A program made the translations under genes and the position numbers. From Chrysoperla carnea (Eukaryota; Arthropoda; Insecta; Neuroptera; Chrysopidae), in the NCBI RefSeq assembly GCF_905475395.1, contig NC_058337.1:131151960-131215959 (forward strand): 64,000 bases of DNA. Direction: 5' to 3'. Below are positions 11,395-62,953 of the stretch, in pieces. The notes under the pieces are model-generated. The model searched no databases and was not told the origin of the DNA. It worked only from the letters and a program-made list of their open reading frames with translations. The number at the start of each line of letters is the position of its first letter. Position 1 is the stretch's first letter.

Positions 11395-12035
11395 TTCATA
11401 ACAAACCGTGACGAATGTGACCCTTAGAGACCGGATCATAAACAACCTGGCGAGGCACAACAAAGTCAATATTACCTAGATACCCGGACACTCTGGTTGG
11501 AACGGTAATGAGAGAGCAGACAAGCTGGCCAAACTGGGAACCACCATGGCTCCCACTCAAAAAAAGCTTGCGAGGATGCCATAACAACAAGGTCTTAACA
11601 GATTAGGAGATAATCTGAAAAACCAACAATTAAAGGCATGGACCAGCTACGAGGGAGGGCGAATCGCCAAAAGCCTGTTGGGTGAAGCGAACTCGCTTGG
11701 TAACAGAGCCGAGGAGATCTTGAAACGAAACAGAGCTGATATTAGAGTCATCGTAGAGTTACTCACAGGGCATGATAACCTGAACAAGTTCCAACATCAG
11801 ATTGGAAAAAGACAATCTCCCGCGTGTGACAGATTCGGAGAAAATTCAGATCGATCCACTTTCTCTGTTACTGCCCGGCCATAGTCGAACCAGAAGAAAT
11901 TAGGAGACTCAGCGCTAGGAAAATTCTGGATTTCTTTACAAGGGTCTACTTGGCTAGGTGCTCTGAACCATTGCTTCAAGGCGCGATGCTCGAGCATGGC
12001 CCGCTAACCTCCATACCCATACCCATACCCAACCT
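11395..12035 (+). pseudogene. Non-LTR retrotransposon 3' end (RNase H and zinc-knuckle tail), copy 1 of family 1
   Basis: Near 11476-11552 one frame reads I-P-G-H-S-G-W-N-G-N-E-R-A-D-K-L-A-K-L-G-T, the RNase H C-terminal signature, with an upstream TAG where a Trp is expected. The next conserved block (11678-11884) holds L-L-T-G-H-D-N-L-N-K-F-Q-H and a C-x2-F (mutated from C-x2-C) knuckle. It ends with CGCTAACCTC and tandem CATACC units at about 12012-12032. The homologous copy at 16062-16595 keeps the knuckle intact. Confidence 0.7.
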
Positions 12036-16061: not shown

Positions 16062-16595
16062 CGTGATATGGTATGGTATGGTATGGTATGGAGGTTAGCG
16101 GGCCATGCTCGAGCATCGCGCCTCGAAGCAATGGTTCAGAGCACCTAGCCAAATAGACCCTTGTACTATATCCCCGCTACGCTTTTCAGTGGCTATTATA
16201 ACCAACTGATGTACTGAAACCCAGGATTTGCCTAGCGCTGAGTTTCCTAATTTCTTCTAGTTCGATTATGGCCGGACCAAACCATTTCCTTCGCTGCTGT
16301 ATGAGTGCCGGGCAGTAACAGAGAAAGTGGATCGATGTTTCTTCTGAATTTTCTCCGCATCTGTCACACGCGGGAGATTGTCTTTTTCCAATCTGATGTT
16401 GGAACTTGTTCAGGTTATCATGCACTGTGAGTAACTCTACGATGACTCTCATATCAGCTCTGTTTAGTTTCAAGATCTCCTCGTCTCTGTTACCGAGCGA
16501 ATTCCCTACACCCAACAGGCTTTTGGCGATTCGCCCTCCCTCGTAGCTTGTCCATGCCTTTAATTGTTGGTTTTTCAGATTATCTTCGTGATATT
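16062..16595 (-). pseudogene. Non-LTR retrotransposon 3' end, copy 2 of family 1
   Basis: A minus-strand frame (16186-16515) is open for 109 codons. It reads R-A-D-M-R-V-I-V-E-L-L-T, then a C-terminal zinc knuckle of the form C-D-R-C-x8-H-F-L-C-x-C-P followed by A-L-I-Q-Q-R-R-K-W-F-G-P. This is the standard end of an insect non-LTR ORF2. Downstream (lower coordinates) the element ends in GGTATGGTATGG units (16069-16092), the complement of the CATACC tail of the 11395-12035 copy. The RNase H and reverse-transcriptase parts are missing, so it is a 5'-truncated insertion. Confidence 0.75.
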
Positions 16596-17346
16596 ATATA
16601 AAAACAATTTTTTTTTACTGGTTTCTGCTTGATCACACGTAAATTTAATCCAATTTTAATGAACCAAATACGAAATTAAACTAAATTTAGAACAATTTTT
16701 CAAATTTTCGATTATATTTTACACATCGAATCAAATTTGGCTAAATTTTTCGATAAAAATCCATTTTTATACTTTGTATTGTCATAAAAATTCAAAAAAA
16801 ATGATTTTGCTGGCTGTTTCACTGTCTAATTTTAATAAAGCATGTCTATTCAATTGGAATCATATTTTTGGTTATATTAGATACCCTATTAAATTTGACT
16901 GACTTATCCAATTTCTGCTATTAACACAAAATTTTGAAGTTCACTCTGTAGTTGCATTTTCAATTATTGCAAAAAAATCTATAGAATATTATCTCGTAAA
17001 TAAAACTGTTTTGTGGTCAACAAAGCCATATTTGTGATCTCAACACCGATAATTACTCCTTTGTTTTGGATGGCATTAAAAGATATTACCTATACGTGAT
17101 TACAATCAACAAAATAATACCTATTTAAAAACAAATATTAAATATTGTCAAAAAAAAAAATGTGTTTGAAATAAAATGAGACAGGTTCACACTATTGAAG
17201 TGTAAAGCGTTACAGTTACATCATCGGGTAGCGATTAAAACCGCAATAGAAATGTTGACTTTGAAGTTTTATTATCACTTCAGGTGAAAAATTCTCTCTG
17301 GAAGGACAGAAAAGTGAAGTCGGTTTTTGAAAATCCATTCTCTTTT
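16596..17346. other. AT-rich intergenic, nothing identified
   Basis: No features were supported between the retrotransposon tail and the left terminal repeat of the next transposon. Confidence 0.4.
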
Positions 17347-17816
17347 TAGTCCATTGAAATGTTACAATTTTAGGGCCAAACTGAACATTTTTGGGGAGGA
17401 CGCGATTTTATTTGTGGAACATGTAGGGGGGGTCAATACAACCTTAACCCCAAGTTTGTGGGGTTGGCGCCCTTGTCCCCCGCCCGCCATCTTGAAAAAG
17501 GGGTGAAACATATTTTTAGCTGTATCTTGTAAACTATTGATTTCTTAAAAAATTTGTAAACGCATAATATGTAGCAAATCTTCGTGGCTACAATTTTGTT
17601 TATGTGACTTTTTGCGATAAACTTAAAATTTAAAAAGTTATGAGCAAAGAAGTGACAAAATTTTGTCAAAAATTTCTTTTTATGCTTATTAACTTTTTTT
17701 CCTGTCATTTTATCATAAAATTAGGTCAGAACAATATTATAGAGAATACGTTTATGAACATTTCCCCGCAAATATTATTAATTTTTGTTAATTTTTAACA
17801 TAGTTACAGCGCTCCA
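17347..17816. repeat. Left terminal inverted repeat of the 17.3-19.4 kb transposon
   Basis: Inverted and diverged copy of 18979-19434. It includes a C/G-rich block (GGCGCCCTTGTCCCCCGCCC) and the ACGTTTATGAACATTTCCCCGC block. Confidence 0.8.
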
Positions 17817-17871
17817 ATATCTTCTACTTAAACATATTATTAATAATATTTTAAAAGAGAATAGCAGCTAG

Positions 17872-18960
17872 CTATCCCATTCTACTCTTCTTCGATGGTC
17901 CAGGTTGTCGTTCAGATTCTCGAAGTTGTGGCTTAGATTCTCCAGGCTGTGGCTCAGATTGTAATTCAACATCGAATGTGAATGTTTGAGGAATGGCAGG
18001 AGTTAAAGTTGGAGTCATCGTTGGTAATTCTTCTTCCAATTCATTTTCTTCCATTAATTTTGTTAATTCCATAATATTGGTACACGTTTCTCCAGAGCAA
18101 TGGAGGCACACTGCGGAGCATTTGAGCCCTACTTTTCTGCAGCCGCACATGCTTCCACAGTTTCCTTTGCATCTGCAGAAAATTAATTTCATAAGTTCCG
18201 GGGGCGGTGGAGGCTTCGAACTTTGGACTGGCATCCAAATGTTTCCATGCTTTTTCCAGCCCCAATCTTCAGGATTATTGTATTTTCCAAGCCATGATTG
18301 GACCTGGTGATACACTCGGAGACTGTGGAAACGGGCTGCATCCTGTGTTGGCGGAAGCGATGATAAACTAAATGAATTTTTTGCTACTGTTTTGGAGAAT
18401 CGTTTGTATCTCATGGTGTCTAGAGAATCGTCCTTGTTTCCACCGTATAAAGAAACGAGAAAACGTTCGCCAACTACACTGAGCAAAGCCGGATCTACTT
18501 TATCATTGAGGAATAGCGCTGTACCACCTGCTAGTTCAGGATGTTTTTCAAGGATTTTTATGAATTTTAGTTTGCCCATATTATAGGCGGCTGATGTTGT
18601 GTCACATCCTGAAAAAGCATGGAGAAACAGTAAATTGTCTGCTATGATATCTCCATACATAAAGGCTGAAGGACTGTATAACTGGTCAGATGAACGGCCT
18701 TTTGAAGGTTTTAAATAGAAGATATTTGACCTTTTCCTCCCTAATGCCGTGAGCAACACAAGGATGTCGATGTCCTCTGCTACGATAGTTACTAAATCGC
18801 AAGATTGAAATGCAGCAAGTGCAGTAGAGACAATGACACTATCTGAATCTGCTTCAGCCTGGTCAATATTAAAACCCACCTCTGTCAGAGTACTCTTTAA
18901 TAGGTCTATGAAATTTGCATTGATTTGCATTTGTTGTTTTAGCTGAGTTATCATATGCAT
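17872..18960 (-). CDS. Transposon ORF: XPG/FEN1-like nuclease half plus CXC-type Cys-rich module
   Basis: An intact 362-residue frame with an ATG start (18958-18960); an in-frame stop lies a few codons upstream. Residues 36-40 read E-A-D-S-D, like the XPG-I acidic motif. Residues 62-70 read E-D-I-D-I-L-V-L-L, and 118-122 read G-C-D-T-T, where FEN1/XPG proteins have a G-x-D motif. Residues 262-294 hold a dense cysteine pattern (C-R-C-K-G-N-C..C-G-C-R-K-V-G-L-K-C-S) like tesmin/TSO1 CXC modules. The C-terminus is Pro/Glu-rich and ends in a basic S-K-K-S-R. The XPG-N half is absent, and the right inverted repeat begins only 19 bp upstream of the ATG. The protein is therefore probably a deletion derivative or only one exon. 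I infer a role in transposition, not a host function. Confidence 0.7.
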   Translation of the reverse strand: MHMITQLKQQMQINANFIDLLKSTLTEVGFNIDQAEADSDSVIVSTALAAFQSCDLVTIVAEDIDILVLLTALGRKRSNIFYLKPSKGRSSDQLYSPSAFMYGDIIADNLLFLHAFSGCDTTSAAYNMGKLKFIKILEKHPELAGGTALFLNDKVDPALLSVVGERFLVSLYGGNKDDSLDTMRYKRFSKTVAKNSFSLSSLPPTQDAARFHSLRVYHQVQSWLGKYNNPEDWGWKKHGNIWMPVQSSKPPPPPELMKLIFCRCKGNCGSMCGCRKVGLKCSAVCLHCSGETCTNIMELTKLMEENELEEELPTMTPTLTPAIPQTFTFDVELQSEPQPGESKPQLRESERQPGPSKKSRMG

Positions 18961-18978
18961 TGATAAACCCGGTCAACT

Positions 18979-19434
18979 TTGGAGCGCTGTAACTACGTTA
19001 AAAATTAAATAAATTAATAAAATTTGCGGGGAAATGTTCATAAACGTATTCTCTATAATAGTGCTCTGACCTAATTTTATGATAAAATGACAAGAAAAAA
19101 AGATATTAAACAAAAAAATTTTTGACAAAATTTTGTCACTTTTTTGCTCATAACTTTTTAATTTTAAGGTTATTGCAAAAAATTACAAAGACAAAATTGT
19201 AGCCACGACAATTTGCTACAAATTATGCCTTTACAAATTTTTGGAGAAATCAATAGTTTACAAGATACAGCTAAAAATATGTTTCCACCCCTTTTTTCAA
19301 GATGGCGGGCGGGGGACAAGGGCGCCAACCCCACAAACTTGGGGTTAAGGTTGTATCGACCCCCCCTACATGTTCCACAAATAAAATCGCGTCCTCCCAA
19401 AAATGTTCAGTCAATGTAACATTTCAATGGACTA
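18979..19434. repeat. Right terminal inverted repeat of the 17.3-19.4 kb transposon
   Basis: Inverted copy of 17347-17816, ending in GTAACATTTCAATGGACTA. Confidence 0.8.
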
Positions 19435-19554
19435 TTTTGAATCTAATCTGTTTAGTAATGTCATTGCACGGTATCACCATAGAGATTACATACAAAACTT
19501 TTTGCTAAAAGAAGATAGCAAAACAATCTTTGAATGTTTATAACGTCTTCGTTT

Positions 19555-20185
19555 TTTTAACCGACTTCAAACAAAAAAGGAGGAGGTTATCAATTCGTCT
19601 GTATTTTTTTTTTATGTTTGTTACCTCAGAACTTTTGAATGGGTGAACCGATTTTGATGATTCTTTATCTATTTGAAAGCTGATGCTTTCCGTGTGGTCC
19701 CATTTCATTTTGGTCGAGTTCTGACAACGGCATCCGTGAGAAAACCAAAAATGCCTTAAATTTTCATTAAGTATGCACGACAAGAAGACGAATAACTCAA
19801 TATCACACCAACCGATTTCGATGATTCTTTTTTAGTGACAAATTAGTTAATGTACTTCAAATTCTCTAAAAATCACAAAATAAAAAAAACTTTTAACAAA
19901 AAAAAAACCGACTTCAAAAGAAAATTTTTCCTAAAACATATTAATATGCACTAAAAAGGAAAAAAATAACGATAATATAATGTAGTTAAAATAATTGTTA
20001 TTTTTGGAGTCGGTGTCAGCCAAGTAAATATAGCAAACTGTTCTGTCAGAGTTGTTTCCTTGGCTGACACCGACTGCAAAAATAACAATAATTTTAACTA
20101 CAATATATTATCGTTATTTTTTTACTTTTTAGTGCATATTAATATGTTTTGGAAAAAATTTTCTTTTGAAGTCGGTTTTTTTTTA
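19555..20185 (+). mobile_element. Palindromic element, family B (copy 1)
   Basis: The copy begins TTTAACCGACTTCAAAC followed by GGAGGAGGTTATCAATTCG. It runs through a tail of about 330 bp and then a large palindrome whose arms meet at GGAGTCGGTGTCAGCCAAG (about 20009) and CTTGGCTGACACCGACT (about 20060). It ends GAAGTCGGTTTTTTTT. There is no ORF. Related copies lie at 22655, 26177, 41215, 46780 and 50782. Confidence 0.75.
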
Positions 20186-20997
20186 TCAATTTTAATTGCA
20201 CTTTCAAATTTTGCTATGGAATCAAGTCTAGTTTTACACATTTTTATGGGTAATATGGCAAATTTGACATCAAGCAACTACCGTATTGTCTATGACCGAG
20301 CTGACATTCATTAATCAAAGGATGTAGGACCAGGGCAATATCTTAAAGGATAAGGCTTGATTTTTTTTATTTGTAGATGAAATACATCTAAATCAACTAT
20401 CAAAGTTCAGGGGAAGGTTGTCACTGTGGTCTTTATTTTATTATTCGGAGATTCGTAGAAAAGCGTCCACGTAGAGTATTGGGTAGCCTTAACCATTGAT
20501 AGCTTATCGCTTTTCTTACAGAATTCTTGAATAAGGAATTACATGTTATGATATTGTTCCGGTAGAGGAAATATTATAAAATCATATTTATGATATTGAA
20601 ATGACGCGTTATCAATTCACAGGCCGTAACTTATCTTTCTAAAAGTTGCCAAAAAATGTTTACATTTAATGGTTGTTGTTTATGTTTACATTTTATTAAT
20701 GCAAAATACAGAAAAAATTTTTATGAAATTTGTTTTTTCTTTTGACAAAAATATGTTTTATTAGTCATAAATATTTTAAAATTTGTGTGTTTTCTTGAAA
20801 TTTTTATCGTTCCTAGTGAGATATTTATAACTGAGTAAATCTTATTTTTGTAAATTATTTTATGCAAGGGAAATTAATCAGCGAGTGATAAGTCTTTCCA
20901 AATATTTTGCTTAGTATATTCGTCCTTGACGAAAATGATGTAGCATACTTTTTTTTATGACACATTACAATTTGGAAAATGCATTTGGGAAATATTT
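20186..20997. other. Intergenic, nothing identified
   Basis: No gene or repeat terminus was supported between family B copy 1 and the next foldback element. Confidence 0.35.
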
Positions 20998-22392: not shown

Positions 22393-22654
22393 TTCGTTAT
22401 TATAGTACAGCGGCCCAGGGAGGCTAGCTCCATATTCGTTATACTTTTCTCTCGATTTAAGCGTTTGGGCAAAGCGATCCACATTTGAAATCAGAAAATG
22501 AATATTCTAAGAATATTGATAATACTCTTAACGCGAAAATTAAAATGTGGTCGTTTGAGTAAAGCTTACCAAATTTTCACCGTTTATTACAACTTTCTTA
22601 TGCACTATTGAAAATGACTAATATGCCTATTAATCGACGTTAAAATATTTTTTA

Positions 22655-26749: not shown

Positions 26750-27205
26750 CCGTAGTCACGTAGTTCATTATTTTTAGAAAAGAGGTGTTCTAAGTTTGAT
26801 CGCTATGTGTGTGTGTGTCTGTCGGTCTGTGGCATCGTAACCCCTAAAGGTCGAACCGACTTAATTGAAAACAGTGTCTAGAACTCGAATAGCCTAATTG
26901 GAAAGGCGCTTGACATGAATCCAAGAAGTCCGGGTTCGAGTCCTGGTTTGAGTGTATTTTTTTTTAAATTCTCTTTAATTAAGATTATTAGACAAGAAAT
27001 TTGTCAATATTTAGTTTACGCCTGTATGTAACATATTATATCAAAATATAGTCGAATAGACCATGATGTAAATATCGTGTGCATGATAAAATGTAAACAA
27101 CAACAATAAGTAATAATTGAAAACATTTTATAGCTAAGTTTCCAAAAATCGATTTACAAGGAATAAATCGCAATTATCGAGGGTTTTTTAAATTTCACTT
27201 GTATT
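26750..27205 (+). repeat. Family D related repeat with embedded tRNA-like sequence
   Basis: AGAGGTGTTCTAAGTTTGATCGCTATGTGTGTGTG, a TCTGTCGGTCTGTGGCATCGTA block and the distal AATTTCACTTGTATTCATTT match the family D tandem at 55703-56400. The middle is replaced by a tRNA-like segment. Confidence 0.5.
26883..26953 (+). tRNA. tRNA-like cloverleaf, probably a pseudogene or SINE head
   Basis: The 71 bases fold as a tRNA. The acceptor stem is ACTCGAA/TTTGAGT (7 bp, one G-T), the D arm GCC/GGC, the anticodon stem CTTG/CAAG, and the T arm CCGGG-TTCGAGT-CCTGG with a good B box. A T9 run follows within a few bases, like a Pol III terminator. The base where U33 is expected is A and the anticodon stem closes poorly. 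I therefore favour a tRNA pseudogene or tRNA-derived repeat over a working gene. Confidence 0.4.
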
Positions 27206-30713: not shown

Positions 30714-30997
30714 TAACCTATCACCTTGGTTGGCTATGCAAAATTTCAATTCGATATTCCTATAAATAAAGAAAATATGATAATGTCTTCATCTTAAATA
30801 CGACCCACTATAGACTATACGATTATATGTATGCTTCTAGATTGGCAAACCTATCTAACCTATCACCTTGGTTGGCTATGCAAAATTTCAATTCGATATT
30901 CCTATAAATAAAGAAAATATGATAATGTCTTCATCTTAAATACGACCCACTATAGACTATACGATTATATGTATGCTTCTAGATTGGCAACCCTATA
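30714..30997 (+). repeat. 142-bp tandem duplication
   Basis: The unit starting TAACCTATCACCTTGG is repeated almost without change (30714-30855 and 30856-30997), so the duplication is recent. The flanking 30630-30713 part is related to 46085-46215. Confidence 0.8.
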
Positions 30998-41214: not shown

Positions 41215-41850
41215 AAAAAAAAACTTTTAACAAAAAGAAAACCGAGTCCAAAAGAAAAATTTTTCAAAAAAAATTAAAATGCACTAAAAAGTAAACAAAT
41301 AATGATAATATAATGGAGTTAAAATTATTGTTATTTTTGGAGTCGGTGACAGCCAAGGAAACAACTCTGACAGAACAGTTTGCTATATTAGCTTGGCTGA
41401 CACCGACTCCAAAAATAACAATAATTTTAACTCCATTATATTATCATTATTTGTTTACTTTTTAGTGCATTTTAATTTGTTTTGGAAAAATTTTTCTTTT
41501 GAAGTCGGTTTTCTTTTTGTTAAAAGTTTTTTTTTATTTTGTGATTTTTAGTGAATCTGAAGTACACTAACTAATTTTTCACTAAAAAAGAATCATCGAA
41601 GTGATATTGAGTTATTCGTCCTCTTGTCGTGCATACTTGTAAATTTAAGACTTTTATGATTTTCTAATGGATGCCGTTGTCAGAACTAGACCAAAATGAA
41701 ATGGGACCAAACGGGAAGCACCAGCTTTCAGAACAACATAAAGAATCATCAAAATCGGTTCACCCAGTCAAAAGTTCTGAGGTAGCAAACATTAAAAAAA
41801 AATACAGTCGAATTGATAACCTCCTCCGTTTTTGTTTGAAGTCGGTTAAA
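41215..41850 (-). mobile_element. Palindromic element, family B (copy 4)
   Basis: The palindrome comes first (arms meet near GGTGACAGCCAAGG at about 41345 and CTTGGCTGACACCGACT at about 41392). The tail follows, ending CTCCGTTTTTGTTTGAAGTC. Reverse orientation relative to copy 1. The arms are nearly intact, which makes this one of the best copies for the full hairpin. Confidence 0.75.
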
Positions 41851-43234
41851 AAGGGGTAAACTCGAAAAACAATTATCCATTTTAAATTTCTACATGCACA
41901 TAAAAAAATATCAGAATTTAACGTTAATAATAACAAAATTTCTATTTTATTTTACTAATTAATTATTTACTGTATAAATGACATTATCTGTTTGAAATAC
42001 AAAATAATAAATATATTTAAAAAAAAATAAAAAATAAAATAATGATAAATAGATTTTAGATATTTATAAAAAGTGATAACTTATAGAGTTCACCAAAAAA
42101 TAATTCATTTATATTGAAAAAAGAAAAAATTTACTTGTATTTTGACAAAAATAATTCAACAATCAACGTATCACAACGTTTCGTGTTATTTATGAAACTT
42201 TTTCAAGCTCTTAACATGTCTACCACATTAAACGTTATAAAAAAAAAAAAATAATAAAAAGCAAAAATGTGTAAATATACAAAAATTGATATAAAAAAAT
42301 TTAATTTATTTTTTAATTTTCAAACATTCTTTCATGATTTAATAATTCTTATAATAATTTTTCAAATATCAAAATGATAATAAAAATTTTTCTATTTTTT
42401 ATGTAAATTTTTTTAAATTATAAAATATAAACAATATAAAAGTTAAACAATTCAAAAATATTCCTTCTAGAAACTATGATTTATGTTGTATTTTTTAAAA
42501 TTAATTAAAACTTACATTAACAAACAAACAAAAATTCTGAAAAGAGAATAGAAACAATCAAAAATTCTTCCAAACACTTATTTCGTAGAAAAATTCACTT
42601 AAAAATTTTTTTGTAAATAAAATCACGAAAAACTATATAAAATTTATAAAAACGAGTAACGCGACGCGATGTAATTGTTTTTTTTTCTCTCCCAAGCACA
42701 ACAACGAACGCGATTTATAATTAGTATTTATAAATTTATAAAAATATAATTTTTTTTATTATTATTTTAAGAAAATAAGAACAGTTCTTTTCAGAAGAAC
42801 TGTCTTGATCATACTGAAATAAATATTGAATGTAGTTATTTTACAACAGAGAGAGTAAAGTAACTCTGATGTGAAGTTTACAATAATACTTGAACGCGTA
42901 CGTACTGTAATTTTATTTGTTACTTTTAACAAACAGTTGATGAAGCTAACTATAGCTACATAGCTACAGGTTTAATGGCTAGAAGTTGTTAGCTAAAGTA
43001 TTATTATTATTATTATTATTGGCAACTGAATATACTTTTACAATAATATTGTTAGAAGTTGTGTGTTGTGCATTGTTATTAAGTTGTTTGTCTAGAGAAC
43101 TTCTGTGAAGCTAACACTTCTCATACTACCTAAATAAAAACAACTTAAAATAAACAATCGACGGAGTTAATTGTTGAAATAACCTGTAACGACATTGTCG
43201 AACTACTGACCTTGTATCCCTATTCCTATCTCTA
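41851..43234. other. AT-rich intergenic, nothing identified
   Basis: Very AT-rich, with an (ATT)n run near 43001-43020. No gene is supported. Confidence 0.35.
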
Positions 43235-46779: not shown

Positions 46780-47420
46780 ATAAAAAACTTTTAACAAAAA
46801 GAAAACCAACTTCAAAAGAAACACTTTTCCAAAACAAATGAATATGCACTGAAAAGTAAAAAAATAACGATAATATAATGCAGTTTAAATTATTGTTATT
46901 TTTGGAGTCGGTGTCAGCCAAGGAAACAACTCTGGCAGAACAGTTTGCTACATTAGCTTGGCTGACACCGACTCCAAAAATAAAAAAAATTTTAACTGCA
47001 TTATATAATATCGTTATTTTTTTACTTTTTAGTGCATTTTCATTTGTTTTGGAAAAGTGTTTCTTTTGAAGTCGGTTTTCTTTTTGTTAAAAGTTTTTTT
47101 ATTTTGAGATTTTTAGTGAATCTGAAGTACACGTACACTAACTAATTTATCACTAAAAAAGAATCATAAAAATCGGTTGGTGTGATATTGAGTTATTCGT
47201 TCTCATACTTAATGCAAATTTAAGACTTTTATAGTTTTCTCATGGATGACGTTGTCAGAACTCAACTAAAATGAAATGGGACCACACGTGAAGCACCAGC
47301 TTTCAAATAGATAAAGAATCATCAAAATCGGTTCACCCAGTCAAAAGTTCTGAGGTAACAAACATAAAAAAATACATACGAATTGAGAACCTCCTTTTTA
47401 TGGTTTGAAGTCGGTTAAAA
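46780..47420 (-). mobile_element. Palindromic element, family B (copy 5)
   Basis: AACTTTTAACAAAAAGAAAACC, the left arm, the centre GGTGTCAGCCAAGG..CTTGGCTGACACC (about 46908-46970), the right arm, then the tail ending GGTTTGAAGTCGGTTAAA. It lies about 200 bp from the 3' end of the astacin gene. Confidence 0.75.
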
Positions 47421-47570
47421 ATTCAGCTTATTCCGTTAGATTCCGAGTTGATATCCTAATATGATTGAAGTGTAACTTCAATTAGGTACTGACAACCTAC
47501 AATAGTATGTGTTAGGATAATTCATAAAAAAACTCTTTCCAAGCATGCGCTCAATCGGTTTTTTAAAATT

Positions 47571-47848: not shown

Positions 47849-50454
47849 CTAAAAACAAAATTTAATAGTTCACAGTACGTATTACTGATAGTTTTTATTG
47901 ATTAAAGCCTTTGCTGAAATTTTTCGGATGAAATGAACCACCTGGAATTTTGTTGAAAAAGATGTTTTTAAATTATATAGGGTTTATGATTTACAAAGTC
48001 AAACAATATTTAAGGCACAAAAATATTTGACGCATGTGCAGAACGCGTGAGCAAATCTCTCATCACGCGACTATAGATAATCGAATGCTGGCGGGTAAAA
48101 TTAAGCTAGTTTCCTTAAATTCTGCCTGGAGCGTTGTTACTGTTTCAAACCTACCTCTGTCAATATTTTCGGTTCTAATTTGAATATAAGAATCTCGATT
48201 AGGATCGCCATGCTCATGTAAAAATCCTAAAATATGTAAAAACTCATGAATTATAGAACCTTGTCTCATACATCCTTTTCCTATAACATGCGGCTGTAAA
48301 TTTGTTTGCTGTTCTCCACCTTCTCTGCCTACAGACGAATAACAACCATCATCGTTAGCCTAAAAACATAAGATTTTAGGTTTTTCATGTTTCAATCGTT
48401 TTTCCAATATTTATACAGATTTTTACCGTAATGGCAATGTAATCTCTATCCCCTGGTTTATAAGATCGAACTGTGATACAAGTTTTCTTCTGGAATTGTT
48501 TTAATGCGGATTTAATGAGACGTTTTTGTTTCTTAGCTAGAATTGATACAGATGGTAAAATAATAATAGTTCTACGACGGAAGACTTTTCAAAGTAATTC
48601 CATGTCCACGTTTTGGAAATCAATGGAGTAAACAAGATGGATCCAACACTTTTGAAAAATTCGAAAAAAACGCAAAAAAAAATTTTTGTTTTGGAATTTG
48701 ACTCGGTGGATGGGGTAATTTTGGTCCAAAAACTATAAAAATCAGGTTAATTTAATGATTGGATGCAGAGTTTATGTCGAGATATCGCAATATTTGGATC
48801 GATTTTTGTTCCTATCTCATAAACTATTTGACCAGTCATCAAATGAATTTCCGATTTTTGTAATTTTTGGGTCAAAATTACCTAATATACTGAGTTTTAT
48901 CGAAATTGGAGATTAAAAATTTTTTTCGATTTTTTGCAATTTTTTTAAGGGTCCTTTGAAAAAATCGAGAAAACCGCAAAAAACTTTTTGCTTTGGAATT
49001 TGATGAAACTCGGTAGATGGGGTAATTTTGATCTAAAAAGCATGAAAATCAGGTTAATTTAATGATTGGATGCAGAGTTTCTGAGATATCGCAATATTTG
49101 GATCGATTTTAGTCTGTATCTCAAAAACTATTCAACTAGCCATCAAATGCATCCGATTTTTGTACTTTTTGGGTCAAAATTACCTTATATTCCGATTTTT
49201 ATCGAAATTGGAGATTACAAAAATTTCTCGATTTTTTGCAATTTTTTTAAGGGGTATCCCTTTAAAAAAATCGAAAAAACCACAAAAAAATGTTTGTTTT
49301 TTAATTTGATGAAACTCGGTGGGTGGTGGTAATTTTGATGCAAAAACAATAAAAATCAGGTTAATTGAATGATTGGATGCAGAGTTTCTGAGATATCGCA
49401 ATATTTTGATCCATTTTAGTCCGTATCTCAAAAACTATTGTACCAGTCATCAAATGCACCCAATTTTTGTAATTTTTGTGTCAAAAATACCTTATAAACT
49501 GAGTTTTATCGAAATTGCAGATAAAATAAATTTCTCGATTTTTTGCATTTTTAAGGGCCCTTTGAAAAAATCGAAAAAACCGCAAAAAAATTTTTGTTTT
49601 GGAATTTGATGAAACTTGGTGGATGGGGTAATTTTGATCCAAAAAGTATGAAAATCAGGTAAATTTAATGATTTGACCTATAGAAAATTACAATGTCAGC
49701 GTGAATAATGTGATAGTCTTTGTTTTTAAAGGAGAAATTGCTCAGCAAAGCGAGCGGATATCTTCTAGTATTTCATAAAATATTAGTATTTAAGAAATTT
49801 AAAATTTATTTAAAAGATTCTTAAAGAGGAGGCAATTAATTCTACTATCCTCAACTTAGAATAAACTTGTTTTTAAAATTTAATATAAAAACTTACTATA
49901 TTTTCCACCATCACGAAACATATATGGTACAGTTCGATTTGGCCATATTTTATTTCTATTATTTCTTGATTTAGCACGTGGCGTTAAAATGATATCCCCT
50001 TCAAATTGACCGCTTAATTGCCAAGCTGGTTGCATTCTTTCAAAAGTAAGATGTTTGAGATTCAACACTAAAGAAAGTGTTTGAGTTATTAAAATATTAC
50101 TTAATTTAATATATTTTTACTCCCGTACTAAAGCTCATTATTCTAGATCAGGGCTCAAAGGTCTTGATCATTTACTTCCAGCCTTAGTCTTGGTCTTCAC
50201 AAGTAAGTTTATGTTTATGATTGTCATATTTCAAAAAAGCATGATAAGCAAATGGGTTTGTTTTGGTCCATATACTGATATTGATTCATCAATAATTGCA
50301 GCATTTTATATAAAAAAAAATTTATATTTCCATACTTACTTTGCTGGTTGCTTAGAGGTTTCTTATGCCTATTAAATTCGTAGGCATGATTGTGATGGAT
50401 TAATGATAAATTGATACAAGATACAACAATAATAATACGAATTAAGAGCTTCAT
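47619..50454 (-). CDS. Astacin-type (M12A) secreted zinc metalloprotease, five exons
   Basis: Joined exons 50454-50340, 50067-49897, 48536-48427, 48359-48155 and 47848-47619 give 831 nt, a 276-residue protein. All introns are GT-AG and phases match. Residues 1-22 or so form a signal peptide (M-K-L-L-I-R-I-I-I-V-V). F-E-G-D at 60-63 carries the prodomain aspartate that holds the zinc in the zymogen. The catalytic domain follows W-P-N-R-T-V-P-Y. The zinc site is HEFLHILGFLHEH at 170-182 (His170, Glu171, His174, His180). The Met-turn is S-L-M-H-Y (Met227, Tyr229). The four disulfide cysteines of the family are present (115, 138, 162, 268). No CUB or EGF domain follows, so it is a minimal astacin, probably a secreted digestive or tissue-remodelling protease. 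The ATG was chosen because it opens the signal peptide; a TTTTTTAG just upstream could be a 5'-UTR acceptor. An AATAAA lies at 47571-47576. Confidence 0.88.
48155..48359 (-). CDS. Astacin exon 4 (zinc-binding motif)
   Basis: Encodes G-C-Y-S-S-V-G-R-E-G-G, K-G-C-M-R-Q-G and HEFLHILGFLHEH. The acceptor is TTTTTAG, the donor GTAGGT, and one base carries over to exon 5. Confidence 0.9.
48427..48536 (-). CDS. Astacin exon 3
   Basis: The acceptor CAATTCTAG precedes it. It encodes residues 97-132, including F-Q-K-K-T-C-I and D-R-D-Y-I-A-I-T. The donor is GTAAAA. Its intron to exon 4 is only 67 bp. Confidence 0.85.
48645..49680. repeat. Tandem array of about 300-bp units inside astacin intron 2
   Basis: TTGGAATTTGATGAAACTCG-like starts fall at about 48691, 48993, 49299 and 49599 (periods about 302, 306, 300). 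Each unit carries GATTGGATGCAGAGTTT, GATATCGCAATATTTGGATC and ATCAAATGCATCCGATTTTTG. The repeat-spanning ORFs seen here (for example 49066-49332) are products of the repetition. Confidence 0.8.
49690..49768 (+). mobile_element. Helitron-type 3' terminus in astacin intron 2
   Basis: The hairpin GCTC..GAGC (49740-49755) is followed by GGATATCTT and CTAG (49765-49768), and then a host T. It lies immediately 3' of the tandem array. The array plus this end may be one Helitron; the 5' TC end (perhaps near 48560) is not certain. Confidence 0.6.
49897..50067 (-). CDS. Astacin exon 2 (prodomain, start of catalytic domain)
   Basis: The acceptor TTTCTTTAG precedes it, and the split codon A|TG gives Met39. 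It contains F-E-G-D-I and W-P-N-R-T-V-P-Y. The donor is GTAAGT. Confidence 0.85.
50340..50454 (-). CDS. Astacin exon 1 (signal peptide)
   Basis: Encodes residues 1-38 plus one base. The donor GTAAGT follows at 50339-50334. Confidence 0.8.
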
Positions 50455-50781
50455 TTTCACGAAAATTCTAAAAAACAAATTTATAATCTTGGATATTCAA
50501 AAAATTTGATAAAAAATGTTGCAAGTAGTGAGTGCAATTAGGTAATATTGTTTTATTTTCTACTCTTTCTAAAGCACTCTACAGTGGATACAACTTTTAA
50601 CGGTCGGTATTTTCGGATTAAGTAAAATAAACCATTCATTGGTAAAATTAATTTCAACAATCTGCTTTTTTGAATACTAAAAACAGTAGGCGAACGTAAG
50701 AGCTGTTTTTTAGCCCATGCGTTATGTCTTTCAACCGCTTAAAATTTCGCTACCACCTCTGAAGTATGACCTACCAAACAA

Positions 50782-50900
50782 AAAAAGAATCATCAAAATC
50801 AATTCATAATTGACGGAATACTCGCGTAACAAACATACAAAAAAGTACATACGATTTGATAAAATCCTCTTTTTTTACTATTTTGATGTCGGTTTAAAAG
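50782..50900 (-). mobile_element. Family B tail fragment (copy 6)
   Basis: AAAAAGAATCATCAAAATC, CGTAACAAACATACAAAAAA and AAATCCTCTTTTTTTAC..GTCGGTTTAAAA follow the order of the outer tail of family B. The palindrome is absent. Confidence 0.6.
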
Positions 50901-52227: not shown

Positions 52228-52781
52228 CTACTAATTGATATAATTAGGAAATCAAAACATATAGTTTTTAAAATAACAAAACTTATGATTTTAATGATCA
52301 AAGATAATTTCCTATAATACGTAATAATTATGCAAGATTTCGACTTAGATTGTTCTTACAGTTCTGGATGTGGTAAGTGGGCTTGAAAGGAGACTCCGAT
52401 AACTTAAGTCACCCGCGATCTAAACAAATTTGTACGAGATCCAAATTTGTGGAAGTACTCTACGAAATTTTTAAGATGTCATGACTCATGACACCGAATT
52501 TCACTTGTGAATAAATTGACTTAAATTTATTTAAAATATGTAATATCACGTAGCCCTTACCATAAAAGTTACGTATCGAAATTTGAATTTTGATGTTTAG
52601 TAATATCCAGAGACTATATCAGTAAACTAATTTAGTTTGCCGTACATTCATAGATGGCATTAAATTTCAACCGATAAAAATTAGCATTAAGTTTCCGTTC
52701 TTCTTTACCGATATATTCTCTGCAACGAGTTGTCTCTAGTATAGTGAACTGTCATAATTTGAGTGAACCGAATATAAAAAA
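52228..52781. other. Spacer upstream of the zinc-finger gene
   Basis: No exon was recognised. It should hold the zinc-finger gene's promoter and 5' UTR (GAGTTGTCTCTAGTATAGTG near 52728), but I see no clear TATA box. Confidence 0.4.
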
Positions 52782-54419
52782 ATGGAAAATAATTTATTTA
52801 ATGATGTAAATAATCATCTTTTAATCGATGAAGAAAACTTAAAAAAAGAATTTCATAGTGAACTTATTATTATTAAAAATGAAATATTTAATGAAAGTGA
52901 TTCAATGGAACATGTATCAATTAAAGAAGAAAATAATAAAACGGAGGATCATGAAGCAATTAAAAAGGAAATACTAGAAGAAAATGTTACAACAAAACAC
53001 GAAGTGGTTGATTTAAATGAAGGGTTTTCAATAGATAAATATCAAGAAATTAAACTTGAACATCAATTAAATACAGAATTTATAAAGGATGAAATATCTG
53101 ATGAAAATGATTTAAAACATCAAACAATTCAACATGAAGAAAAGAACATTTCATGTGACGTTAGTGATAAAAAATTTGCTGATCAATGTAGTTTAATTGT
53201 GCATAAAAAAATTCATAGTGAAGAAAAACCATTTTCTTGTGAAGTTTGTGATAAATCATATACTCAGCGAATCAGTTTAGAAGCACATAAACGGACTCAT
53301 ACTGGAGAAAATCTTTTTTCTTGTGAAGTTTGTGATAAATCATTTACTCAGCGAATCAATTTAGAAGCACATCAACGGACCCATTCTGGAGAAAAGCCTT
53401 TTTCTTGTGAAGTTTGCGATAAATCATTTACTCATCAAAACGGTTTAAAGTATCATAAACGGACTCATACTGGAATAAAACCTTTTCCTTGTGACGTTTG
53501 TGATAAATCATTTGCTGAGCGAATCAATTTAGAAGCACATAAACGGACACATACTGGAGAAAAACCATTTTCTTGTGAAATTTGTAATAAATTATTTACT
53601 CATCGAAACAATTTAAAAAGACATGAACGCACTCATACTGGAGAAAAACCTTTTACTTGTGAAGTCTGCGATAAATCATTCACTCATCAAAATGGTTTAA
53701 AAAATCATAAACTGGCTCATACTGGAGAAAAACCTTTTTCTTGTGAAGTTTGTGATAAATCATTTACTCAGCGAGTCAATTTAGAAGCACATAAACGGAC
53801 TCATACTGGAGAAAAACCATTTTCTTGTCAAGTTTGTGATAAATCATTTACTCATCGAAAGAATTTAGAAAGGCATAAACGAACTCATACTGGAGAAAAA
53901 CCATTTTTCTGTCAAATTTGTGATAAATCATTTACTCGACAAGAGGGTTTAAATGATCATCAACGGACTCATACTGGAGAAAAACCGTTTTCCTGTGAAG
54001 TTTGTGATAAATCATTTACTCAGCGAATCAATTTAGAAGCTCACAAACGGACTCATACCGGAGACAAACCTTTTCCTTGTGATTTTTGTGATAAATCATT
54101 TACTCAGCGAATCAATTTAGAAGCACATAAACGGACTCATACTGGAGAAAAACCTTTTTCATGTGACCTTTGTGATAAATCATTTGCACGTCAAGAGAGT
54201 TTAGATGGTCATAAACGGACTCATACTGGGGAAAAACCTTTCTCTTGTGAAGTTTGTGATAAATCATTTACTCTTCGAACCAATTTAGAAAGGCATACAC
54301 GGACTCATACTGGAGAAAAACCTTTTATCTGTCAAATTTGTGATAAATCATTTACTCGTCAATATGGTTTAGATATTCATAAACGGACTCATACTGAAGA
54401 AAAACCTTTTATTTTATGA
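52782..54419 (+). CDS. C2H2 zinc-finger protein, 14 intact fingers, single exon
   Basis: A 545-residue protein. The ATG is in a strong context (AAAAAA before it, G after). Residues 1-120 are acidic with no ZAD or BTB domain. They carry six hydrophobic-K-x-E sites (20-23, 31-34, 47-50, 60-63, 90-93, 101-104), the SUMO-attachment consensus. Residues 123-145 are a degenerate finger whose second Cys is Ser128. From 151 on, 14 fingers of exactly 28 residues run to 542 with TGEKP-type linkers. Base-contacting positions (-1, 2, 3, 6) fall into classes: Q/E-I-N-A (fingers 1, 2, 4, 7, 10, 11), H-N-G (3, 6), H-x-N-R and relatives (5, 8, 13), and R-x-G/S (9, 12, 14). This suggests duplication of a short block. 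It is probably a nuclear sequence-specific DNA-binding protein; its target is unknown. A homologous fifteenth finger after the stop is decayed. Confidence 0.88.
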   Translation: MENNLFNDVNNHLLIDEENLKKEFHSELIIIKNEIFNESDSMEHVSIKEENNKTEDHEAIKKEILEENVTTKHEVVDLNEGFSIDKYQEIKLEHQLNTEFIKDEISDENDLKHQTIQHEEKNISCDVSDKKFADQCSLIVHKKIHSEEKPFSCEVCDKSYTQRISLEAHKRTHTGENLFSCEVCDKSFTQRINLEAHQRTHSGEKPFSCEVCDKSFTHQNGLKYHKRTHTGIKPFPCDVCDKSFAERINLEAHKRTHTGEKPFSCEICNKLFTHRNNLKRHERTHTGEKPFTCEVCDKSFTHQNGLKNHKLAHTGEKPFSCEVCDKSFTQRVNLEAHKRTHTGEKPFSCQVCDKSFTHRKNLERHKRTHTGEKPFFCQICDKSFTRQEGLNDHQRTHTGEKPFSCEVCDKSFTQRINLEAHKRTHTGDKPFPCDFCDKSFTQRINLEAHKRTHTGEKPFSCDLCDKSFARQESLDGHKRTHTGEKPFSCEVCDKSFTLRTNLERHTRTHTGEKPFICQICDKSFTRQYGLDIHKRTHTEEKPFIL

Positions 54420-58855: not shown

Positions 58856-59386
58856 TCAATCATTCTTTTTTAAAGCCTCAATCAGATTTTTTTCACCTTC
58901 ACCAGGAACACTTGGTATTTTTCTCAATTTTTCAACATAATCATTTGGTATTCCAGACTCAACAGCACCGTCTATAATACAATTTTTATATAATTCCGAA
59001 GGTCTTCTGTCCAATGGTAACGATTCCCCTTCGTTTAACATTTTTGGATTAACTGTTTGTTGATAAGTTTTACAAGTAATTGAATTGCCTTCAGGCGTTT
59101 CAATAGTTGCATCAAATCGGAAATACATATTTTCATGAACACCTTCTTGATGATCTAAAGATGCTAAATGAATATCGTCAAGTTCCCAAATTGCACCCCA
59201 AACTGTATGGCCCGGTGTTGGAACAATTGTTGCGGCGGCACCTTTCCATCGACTTGAATAATTAATAAAATCTAAACGATAATCTTTTAGTTTTCCAACA
59301 CCCTTACGCACAGCTGAAGGATTTTTCAAATGTATACGTTTACTTAACAAATTACTGCCGTAAGCAAAATATAAAAATTTACCCAT
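58856..59386 (-). CDS. Gamma-glutamylcyclotransferase-like protein, copy 1
   Basis: A 176-residue single-exon protein of the GGCT fold. The family enzyme converts gamma-glutamyl-amino acids (from glutathione) to 5-oxoproline and free amino acid in the cytosol. The N-terminal F-L-Y-F-A-Y-G-S-N-L-L (residues 4-14) holds the Y-G-S-N substrate loop, and Glu81 in L-D-H-Q-E-G-V corresponds to the catalytic acid. V-W-G-A-I-W-E-L (62-69) is also conserved. Length fits the family, with no signal peptide or membrane segment. The ATG gives the expected start just before the first beta strand. It is the most downstream of three tandem minus-strand paralogues, close to copy 3 in sequence. A TATA motif and a GATA site lie about 65 and 90 bases upstream. 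No introns: either an ancestral intronless gene or a duplicated retrocopy. Confidence 0.9.
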   Translation of the reverse strand: MGKFLYFAYGSNLLSKRIHLKNPSAVRKGVGKLKDYRLDFINYSSRWKGAAATIVPTPGHTVWGAIWELDDIHLASLDHQEGVHENMYFRFDATIETPEGNSITCKTYQQTVNPKMLNEGESLPLDRRPSELYKNCIIDGAVESGIPNDYVEKLRKIPSVPGEGEKNLIEALKKND

Positions 59387-59450
59387 GTTTACTGATGAAA
59401 TTCAAAATTGTTGTAAAAGTGAATACTATTTTTTTTAAGTTATAAAATGG

Positions 59451-61092: not shown

Positions 61093-61644
61093 TTAATCAT
61101 TTTTTCTAAAGAGCTCGTTTAGATTTAATTCACCTTTAACGGGAACACTTGGTATTTTTCTCAATTTTTCGATATAATCATTTGGTAATCCAGACTCAAT
61201 AGCACCTTCTAGAATAACACTTTTATAGAATTCCGACGGTTTTCTGTCTAATGGTAACGATTCCCCTTCGTTTAACATTTCTGGATTTTCTGTTTGTTGA
61301 TAAGTTTTACATGTAATTAAATTACCTTCAGTCGTTTCAATATTTACATCAAATCGGGAATACATATTCTGAAGGACACCATTCATATCTTCGTGGACAC
61401 CTTCTTCACGATCTAAAGATGCTAAAAGACTATCGTCAAGTTCCCAAATTGCACCCCAAACTGTATGGCCGGGTGTTGGAACAATTGTTGCACCGGCACC
61501 TTTCCAGCGATTTGAATAATGTCCAAAATCTAAACGATAATCTTTTAGTTTTCCAACACATTTACGCACAGCTGATGGATTTGTAAAATGTATACGTTTA
61601 CTTAATAAATTACTAGCGTAAGCAAAATATAACAATTTTCCCAT
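61093..61644 (-). CDS. Gamma-glutamylcyclotransferase-like protein, copy 2 (divergent)
   Basis: A 183-residue single-exon paralogue. Glu81 is kept in L-D-R-E-E-G-V, but the substrate-loop motif reads Y-A-S-N-L-L: Gly10 is Ala, at a position that is Gly in the other two copies. Seven extra residues at 86-92 (D-M-N-G-V-L-Q) come from an imperfect 21-base tandem duplication (GGTGTC at 61401-61396 and 61380-61375 on the minus strand). Other changes include H-F-T-N for H-L-K-N near residue 20. The frame is intact, so it may be expressed. These changes near the active-site loop suggest altered or lost activity. Its poly(A) region has lost the AATAAA of the sister copies. The upstream flank is split by a MITE at 61758-62082. 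Confidence 0.87.
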   Translation of the reverse strand: MGKLLYFAYASNLLSKRIHFTNPSAVRKCVGKLKDYRLDFGHYSNRWKGAGATIVPTPGHTVWGAIWELDDSLLASLDREEGVHEDMNGVLQNMYSRFDVNIETTEGNLITCKTYQQTENPEMLNEGESLPLDRKPSEFYKSVILEGAIESGLPNDYIEKLRKIPSVPVKGELNLNELFRKND

Positions 61645-61706
61645 ATTTGAAGTGATTCAATTCAAAATTGATGTAAAATTGAATTATATTTTTAACTTGT
61701 CAAATC

Positions 61707-62361: not shown

Positions 62362-62892
62362 TTAATTACTCTTTTCTAAAGCTTCGATTAGATTTAATTC
62401 ACCTTTAACAGGAACACTTGGTATTTTTCTCAATTGTTCAATATAATCATTTGGTAATCCAGACTCAACAGCACCTTCTAGAATAACACTTTTATACAAT
62501 TCTGATGGTCTTCTGTCCAATGGTAATGATTCCCCTTCGTTTAACAATTCTGGACTTTCTGTTTGTTGATAAGTTTTACATGTAATTAAATTACCTTCAG
62601 TCGTTTCAATATTCGCATCAAATCGGAAATACATATTCTGATGGACACCTTCTTGATGATCTAAAGATGCTAAATGACTATCGTCAAGTTCCCAAATTGC
62701 ACCCCAAACTGTATGGCCCGGTGTTGGAACAATTGTTGCGGCGGCACCTTTCCATCGATTTGAATAATGCATAAAATCTAAACGATAATCTTTTAGTTTT
62801 CCAACACATTTACGCACAGCTGATGGATTTTTTAAATGTATACGTTTACTTAATAGATTACTGCCGTAGGCAAAATATAAAAATTTACCCAT
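62362..62892 (-). CDS. Gamma-glutamylcyclotransferase-like protein, copy 3
   Basis: A 176-residue single-exon protein. It has the canonical F-A-Y-G-S-N-L-L loop (residues 7-14) and catalytic-type Glu81 in L-D-H-Q-E-G-V. It differs from copy 1 mainly at scattered surface positions (for example M-H-Y-S-N-R for I-N-Y-S-S-R at 41-46) and in the C-terminal tail (V-K-G-E-L-N-L-I-E-A-L). It shares C-terminal words with copy 2 (V-P-V-K-G-E-L-N-L), so copies 2 and 3 may be the younger pair or may have exchanged sequence by conversion. It is the most upstream gene of the minus-strand array. The predicted role is cytosolic gamma-glutamyl peptide turnover. Confidence 0.9.
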   Translation of the reverse strand: MGKFLYFAYGSNLLSKRIHLKNPSAVRKCVGKLKDYRLDFMHYSNRWKGAAATIVPTPGHTVWGAIWELDDSHLASLDHQEGVHQNMYFRFDANIETTEGNLITCKTYQQTESPELLNEGESLPLDRRPSELYKSVILEGAVESGLPNDYIEQLRKIPSVPVKGELNLIEALEKSN

Positions 62893-62953
62893 GTTTACTG
62901 ATTAAATTCAAAATTGATGTAAAATTGAATTACTTTTTTTAAGTTGTCAAATC

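Follow-up and report, generated by a model that had tools for sequence, protein, structure and literature searches.

In the stretch of DNA analysed here (64,000 nt, hereafter the window), we identified a 2,088-bp unit at positions 17347–19434, bounded by inverted arms, which we interpret, with a probability of about 0.68, as a non-autonomous derivative, shortened by an internal deletion, of a cut-and-paste DNA transposon of the AcademX-like kind. The element was filed as a probable derivative of AcademX, not as an autonomous member, because no Academ-type DDE transposase was found in the ORF and a non-autonomous copy need not carry one. It is an ordinary kind of transposon leftover, notable chiefly for its unbroken reading frame.

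The initial annotation had described inverted repeats of about 460 bp at both ends, and these were confirmed. The left terminal inverted repeat occupies 17347..17817 (plus strand, 471 bp, downstream of the ORF) and the right one 18979..19434 (minus strand, 456 bp, upstream of the ORF, with no frame reading into it). In an end-to-end alignment, the two arms were reverse-complementary at 431 of 454 aligned columns, leaving 23 mismatches, together with 10 indel events amounting to 19 gap positions, and the outermost 20 bases matched perfectly. The element ends, 17347 and 19434, were set at the points where this complementarity stops. Immediately outside them lies the 4-mer TTTT on both the left (17343..17346) and the right (19435..19438), forming a candidate target-site duplication. 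The chance of any matching flanking 4-mer was 0.008 at the local composition, and the frequency of TTTT itself was 0.028; the duplication is suggestive, being a single case of a low-complexity string, and this weighs against our interpretation.

The distribution of differences along the arms gave two opposing signals. Mismatches numbered 1 in 150 outer aligned bases versus 22 in 304 inner ones (Fisher P 0.0012, with a dividing line picked after the arm pieces had been inspected), and this scarcity in the outer arms fits functional termini. The indels did not share the mismatch trend, six of the ten events falling in the outer 163 alignment columns and four in the inner part, a distribution that counts against a simple constraint on the termini. 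These data also bear on whether the arms are merely unrelated flanking duplications, left where a host gene or a degenerate gene was caught up in a palindromic rearrangement. We consider this very improbable: the complementarity ends sharply on both sides with the matching 4-mer outside, and the mismatches are distributed as expected for functional termini. What such a rearrangement has in its favour is that no second arm copy proves mobility. A search of the window with the arms (E up to 1e-3) detected no second copy of the element, and the one row beyond the arms themselves was a 40-bp match at an internal palindrome, 17822–17861. Likewise, no second copy of the ORF protein was detected in the window, the sole other tblastn row having an E value of 9.6. 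The description of the unit as a DNA transposon with long inverted repeats and one intact frame is supported, albeit by a single copy.

That frame agrees with the annotated one. It comprises 362 codons plus stop on the minus strand (17872..18960, read from 18960 to 17872), is open from 18972 and contains an XPG-I-like part followed by a CXC-like cysteine segment. The ATG lies 18 bp from the right arm and the stop 54 bp from the left arm; the open frame is immediately preceded by an in-frame stop codon. The longest stop-free run in the element interior was 366 codons, whereas 500 interiors simulated with a second-order Markov model averaged 99 codons and never exceeded 216, and the GC content at codon positions 1, 2 and 3 was 48, 41 and 35%. 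Since the 366-codon run exceeds that of all simulated interiors and the GC content falls from 48 to 35%, we take the frame to be real and not a product of chance. No further ATG-started ORF longer than 105 aa was found within the element.

The acidic motifs claimed for the ORF protein are all present, with EADSD at residue 36, EDIDI at residue 62 and GCDTT at residue 118, and the residues E36, D38, D63, D65 and D120 succeed one another as in the latter half of the FEN1/XPG site. Based on motif order and spacing and on a weak profile match, the part resembling the latter half of XPG/FEN-like nucleases was placed at residues 16–145 (18526..18915, minus strand), with approximate limits. The order and approximate spacing of the E-A-D/E, D-x-D and G-C/S-D motifs are shared with FEN1, XPG, EXO1 and GEN1; in contrast to these proteins, however, the ORF protein lacks the N-terminal half, has a gap of 23 residues between the first and second motifs where the four tested segments have 17, continues into a segment rich in cysteines and then a C-terminal tail, and is very weakly similar overall. 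Human FEN1 binds metal through D34, D86, E158, E160, D179, D181 and D233; the last five of these seven acidic residues have counterparts in the ORF protein, and the first two have none. Both of these N-terminal aspartates of FEN1, as well as the first strand of its fold, belong to the region preceding E158. In the ORF protein only 35 residues precede E36, and the region corresponding to the first two aspartates of FEN1 would fall before the ORF start. The nuclease described as intact in the initial annotation is consequently intact in its reading frame but incomplete as a domain.

To gauge this resemblance, we used shuffled versions of the ORF protein. A motif pattern common to all four tested FEN-family segments occurred in 2 of 200,000 shuffles, a figure that is not independent of the data because the pattern was widened after its first version had failed. 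That first version matched the ORF protein (1 of 200,000 shuffles) but failed on all four FEN-family segments and was discarded. In hmmsearch with a profile built from four sequences (FEN1, EXO1, XPG and GEN1), the ORF protein scored 7.9 bits (E 0.18 among 1,001 sequences, 467 of which were reported), whereas the highest-scoring of 1,000 shuffles reached 7.5 bits. Alignment to the FEN-family segments by hhalign gave a P value of 0.0031 and a probability of 10% for a 36-column region around the GCD motif, with a score reached by none of 200 shuffles. Both profile matches span only residues 107–142, around this motif.

The comparison with XPG/PIN and CXC profiles proposed in the initial annotation came back negative. 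Pfam returned no significant XPG, PIN, CXC or transposase model for the whole protein, three sub-segments or the cysteine segment; the one row obtained, Myticin-prepro (E 0.55; 10.9 bits, where the cut-off is 28.5), is not relevant. Nothing relevant was found for the whole ORF protein in NCBIfam and PHROGs, and PDB searches by sequence gave no match for the whole protein (E up to 1) or its nuclease part (E up to 10). AlphaFold2 models built without an alignment had a mean pLDDT of 36.4 for the whole protein and 41.3 for residues 1–147, too low for a fold search. This lack of a significant model or solved-structure match counts against our interpretation as well. On motif order, motif spacing and the weak profile scores, the XPG-like reading is retained, with no significant library match behind it; the kinship appears to be at the level of motifs and is suggestive, not proven.

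The second part of the ORF protein is a segment of nine cysteines at residues 262–295 (18076..18177, minus strand), located at positions 262, 264, 268, 272, 274, 281, 285, 288 and 293; two other cysteines lie at 54 and 119. Their spacing over residues 262–293, C-x-C-x3-C-x3-C-x-C-x6-C-x3-C-x2-C-x4-C, resembles that of the CXC unit (tesmin/TSO1-like), with the same number of cysteines, C-x-C repeats and similar intervals. The ORF protein differs in having one unit only and in being recognized by neither Pfam nor PDB sequences. No Pfam match to the cysteine segment was listed at E up to 10, a negative result limited by the HMMER filters, which remove most matches above about E 0.1, and the PDB search by sequence gave one unrelated row (E 1.3). 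What supports the CXC reading is the number and spacing of the cysteines.

The initial annotation had also stated that no transposase domain is visible. In agreement with this, neither Pfam nor NCBIfam detected an Academ-type DDE transposase domain in the ORF, and the three frames of the upstream arm, judged by eye, contained no continuation of the ORF, no missing nuclease half and no transposase. The nuclease domain appears to be cut midway, the outcome expected of a deletion, because only 35 residues of the ORF precede E36 and the open frame follows directly on an in-frame stop and is not continued by the arm frames. The 18-bp stretch between the inner end of the right arm and the ORF start (18961..18978, minus strand) is the presumed deletion junction, as judged from the arm boundary; the inner edge of the right arm may itself be this junction, the cut lying within 18 bp of that edge.

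The nuclease of AcademX elements is of the XPG type, and XPG nucleases are linked to Academ. The combination of a 4-bp TTTT duplication and an XPG-like remnant fits AcademX. In the excerpts of PMC10045372 available, target duplications are 3 or 4 bp for AcademX and 9 or 10 bp for AcademH and are tied to the encoded nuclease or helicase, with no mention of the XPG type. The element resembles AcademX in its inverted termini, in a putative nuclease-type accessory domain and, by the duplication lengths in those excerpts, in a 4-bp candidate target duplication, but differs in being about 2.1 kb long and in having neither a recognizable transposase region nor the first nuclease half. The literature searched did not describe how the domains of AcademX proteins are arranged and contained no text pairing the whole words 'XPG' and 'Academ', and the motif strings were likewise unmatched.

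A non-autonomous deletion derivative of another superfamily with an XPG-like accessory domain is an alternative that we consider unlikely; long-arm elements occur in several superfamilies, such as MuDR-like or P-like. A DDE half or related termini would be needed to fix the superfamily, and long arms are described in the available portions of papers on Mutator-like elements (PMC3310237) and on Galileo (PMC4168063). Accessory nucleases occur elsewhere, for example in Kolobok lineages, but those named in the part of PMC9587614 available are of other types, and the 4-bp duplication fits AcademX in the excerpted PMC10045372. Galileo and other P-superfamily derivatives resemble the present element in their structurally variable inverted repeats, a mechanistic parallel only, but belong to another transposase superfamily; according to excerpts of PMC4168063, defective copies arose there when gap repair was aborted or switched templates.

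Returning to the AcademX-like interpretation, we propose that the parent was an element of several kilobases whose large protein would have consisted of a DDE transposase, then an XPG-type nuclease and then a cysteine segment. Presumably, the parents of such elements carry the nuclease and cysteine segment at the C-terminus, and large uncharacterized aphid and cnidarian proteins show the same arrangement at their C-terminal ends. Faulty repair after excision may have removed everything from the inward-facing end of the 5′ arm to a point midway through the nuclease domain. The remaining unit would then be recognized by its arms and moved in trans by a full-length partner at another genomic site, whose transposase would bind and cut the arms, and the unit would reinsert with a short duplication. 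The truncated protein probably does no more than bind or interfere, and a nuclease activity of its own is unlikely because the first aspartates of the site are absent.

Shortening of this kind has precedents. The element measures 2.1 kb, whereas autonomous Academ elements curated from bivalves have an average length of 5,565 bp in the excerpted text of PMC10294476. Deleted and truncated Academ copies, none full-length, are reported for an aphid in the portion of PMC9783078 available, and 42 'FLC', presumably full-length copies, are listed among 1,097 Academ copies of a whitefly in that of PMC9143410. As far as these excerpts go, shortened Academ copies are not unusual.

The unbroken frame would mean either that the deletion is recent or that the fragment has been kept. 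If the arm differences had arisen neutrally in this copy, about 12 indels and 1.4 stops would be expected in the ORF; the probability of an intact ORF under neutral decay at the arm rate is about 8e-5 (0.24 with substitutions only), an estimate that assumes equal mutation in the ORF and in the arms, which are A/T-rich and may differ. This low probability suggests that the arms probably diverged in a lineage with a protected ORF, such as a coding parent. Earlier divergence of the arms in a coding lineage, followed by a fairly recent deletion, is the more natural reading; selection on the short ORF would explain the intact frame too.

The initial annotation had raised the alternative of a new architecture in which the nuclease half travels alone. 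In the form considered here, a stand-alone nuclease half with a CXC module would serve as an accessory or competitor of an external transposase, with its frame under selection. The frame is intact and coding-like, the arm divergence argues against its plain decay, and the ORF forms a tidy cassette in its close fit between the arms; however, the protein begins mid-domain, without the N-terminal aspartates of the FEN/XPG site, the element is known from one copy and no relatives appeared in the prokaryotic and viral collections searched. We regard this alternative as improbable, with little positive evidence, and of the two possibilities offered in the initial annotation, the Academ-like deletion derivative fits best. 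Internally deleted P elements encoding repressors offer a parallel for a further idea, namely, a compact transposon family whose transposase-less nuclease-half/CXC protein is kept because it assists or represses full-length Academ elements in trans, to which we attach very little credence. If the fragment were conserved in many copies, the element would be an example of selection preserving part of a protein in a transposon that has suffered a deletion, with a bearing on transposon self-regulation. For annotation, its probable ends and the retained C-terminal coding segment could be used as probes for the full-length parent in the host genome.

Neither a parent nor a second copy was found in the window or in the prokaryotic and viral collections, a further point against the proposed AcademX-like origin. 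No relative was detected by tblastn of the ORF protein against phages and plasmids. In viral contigs, peptide patterns matched seven stretches, none of them a relative, four further patterns matched nothing, and one loose pattern matched at least 120 stretches, among which the 120 listed gave a best tblastn E value of 1.5 with the ORF protein, as expected by chance. A pattern modelled on a motif of the putative transposase half had no match in viral contigs, nor had two degenerate patterns in prokaryotic genome contigs. As a control, the viral four-pattern set, the loose pattern and the genome-contig patterns all match the window itself. Exact patterns miss divergent relatives and the collections are prokaryotic and viral, and these results therefore carry little weight for eukaryotic relatives.

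Several other repeats and genes were observed in the window. A dispersed repeat lies at 19554–20190, with copies near 22648, 26176, 41583–41852 and 47154–47421 that are 88–92% identical over some 280 bp to 19554–19834, and a fifth place, 50762–50899, that is 74% identical; the repeat has an internal palindrome at 19899–20184 with 130-nt arms (95%). An insertion of the element into a copy of this repeat was considered and rejected, as the repeat match starts 119 bp to its right, and the joined flanks of the element had no other match in the rest of the window at E up to 0.01. A 25-nt stretch to the left of the element (17315–17339) resembles the far end of the repeat (20167–20191, 80%) and was taken as minor. 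A probable retrotransposon tail at 16186–16593 (minus strand) and 11608–11850, with a zf-RVT-like match at E 0.006 that is below the Pfam cut-off, is partially duplicated in inverted orientation (96%) at a distance of 4.5 kb. Tandem repeats include a 307-bp unit at 48651–49673 (3.4 copies, 85% matches) and a possibly recent 142-bp unit at 30714–30996 (two copies, 99% matches). A 550-codon ORF at 52767–54419 (plus strand) contains 14 C2H2 zinc-finger matches in an 84-bp repeat array. The repeats, this long zinc-finger ORF and the retrotransposon tail point to a eukaryotic host, probably an animal. Three neighbouring gamma-glutamyl cyclotransferase-like ORFs (GGACT/AIG2_2) on the minus strand, at 58856–59401, 61093–61656 and 62362–62901, are repeat copies with 86–91% DNA similarity, and a tRNA-Ser (TGA) gene is located at 26883–26954 on the plus strand.
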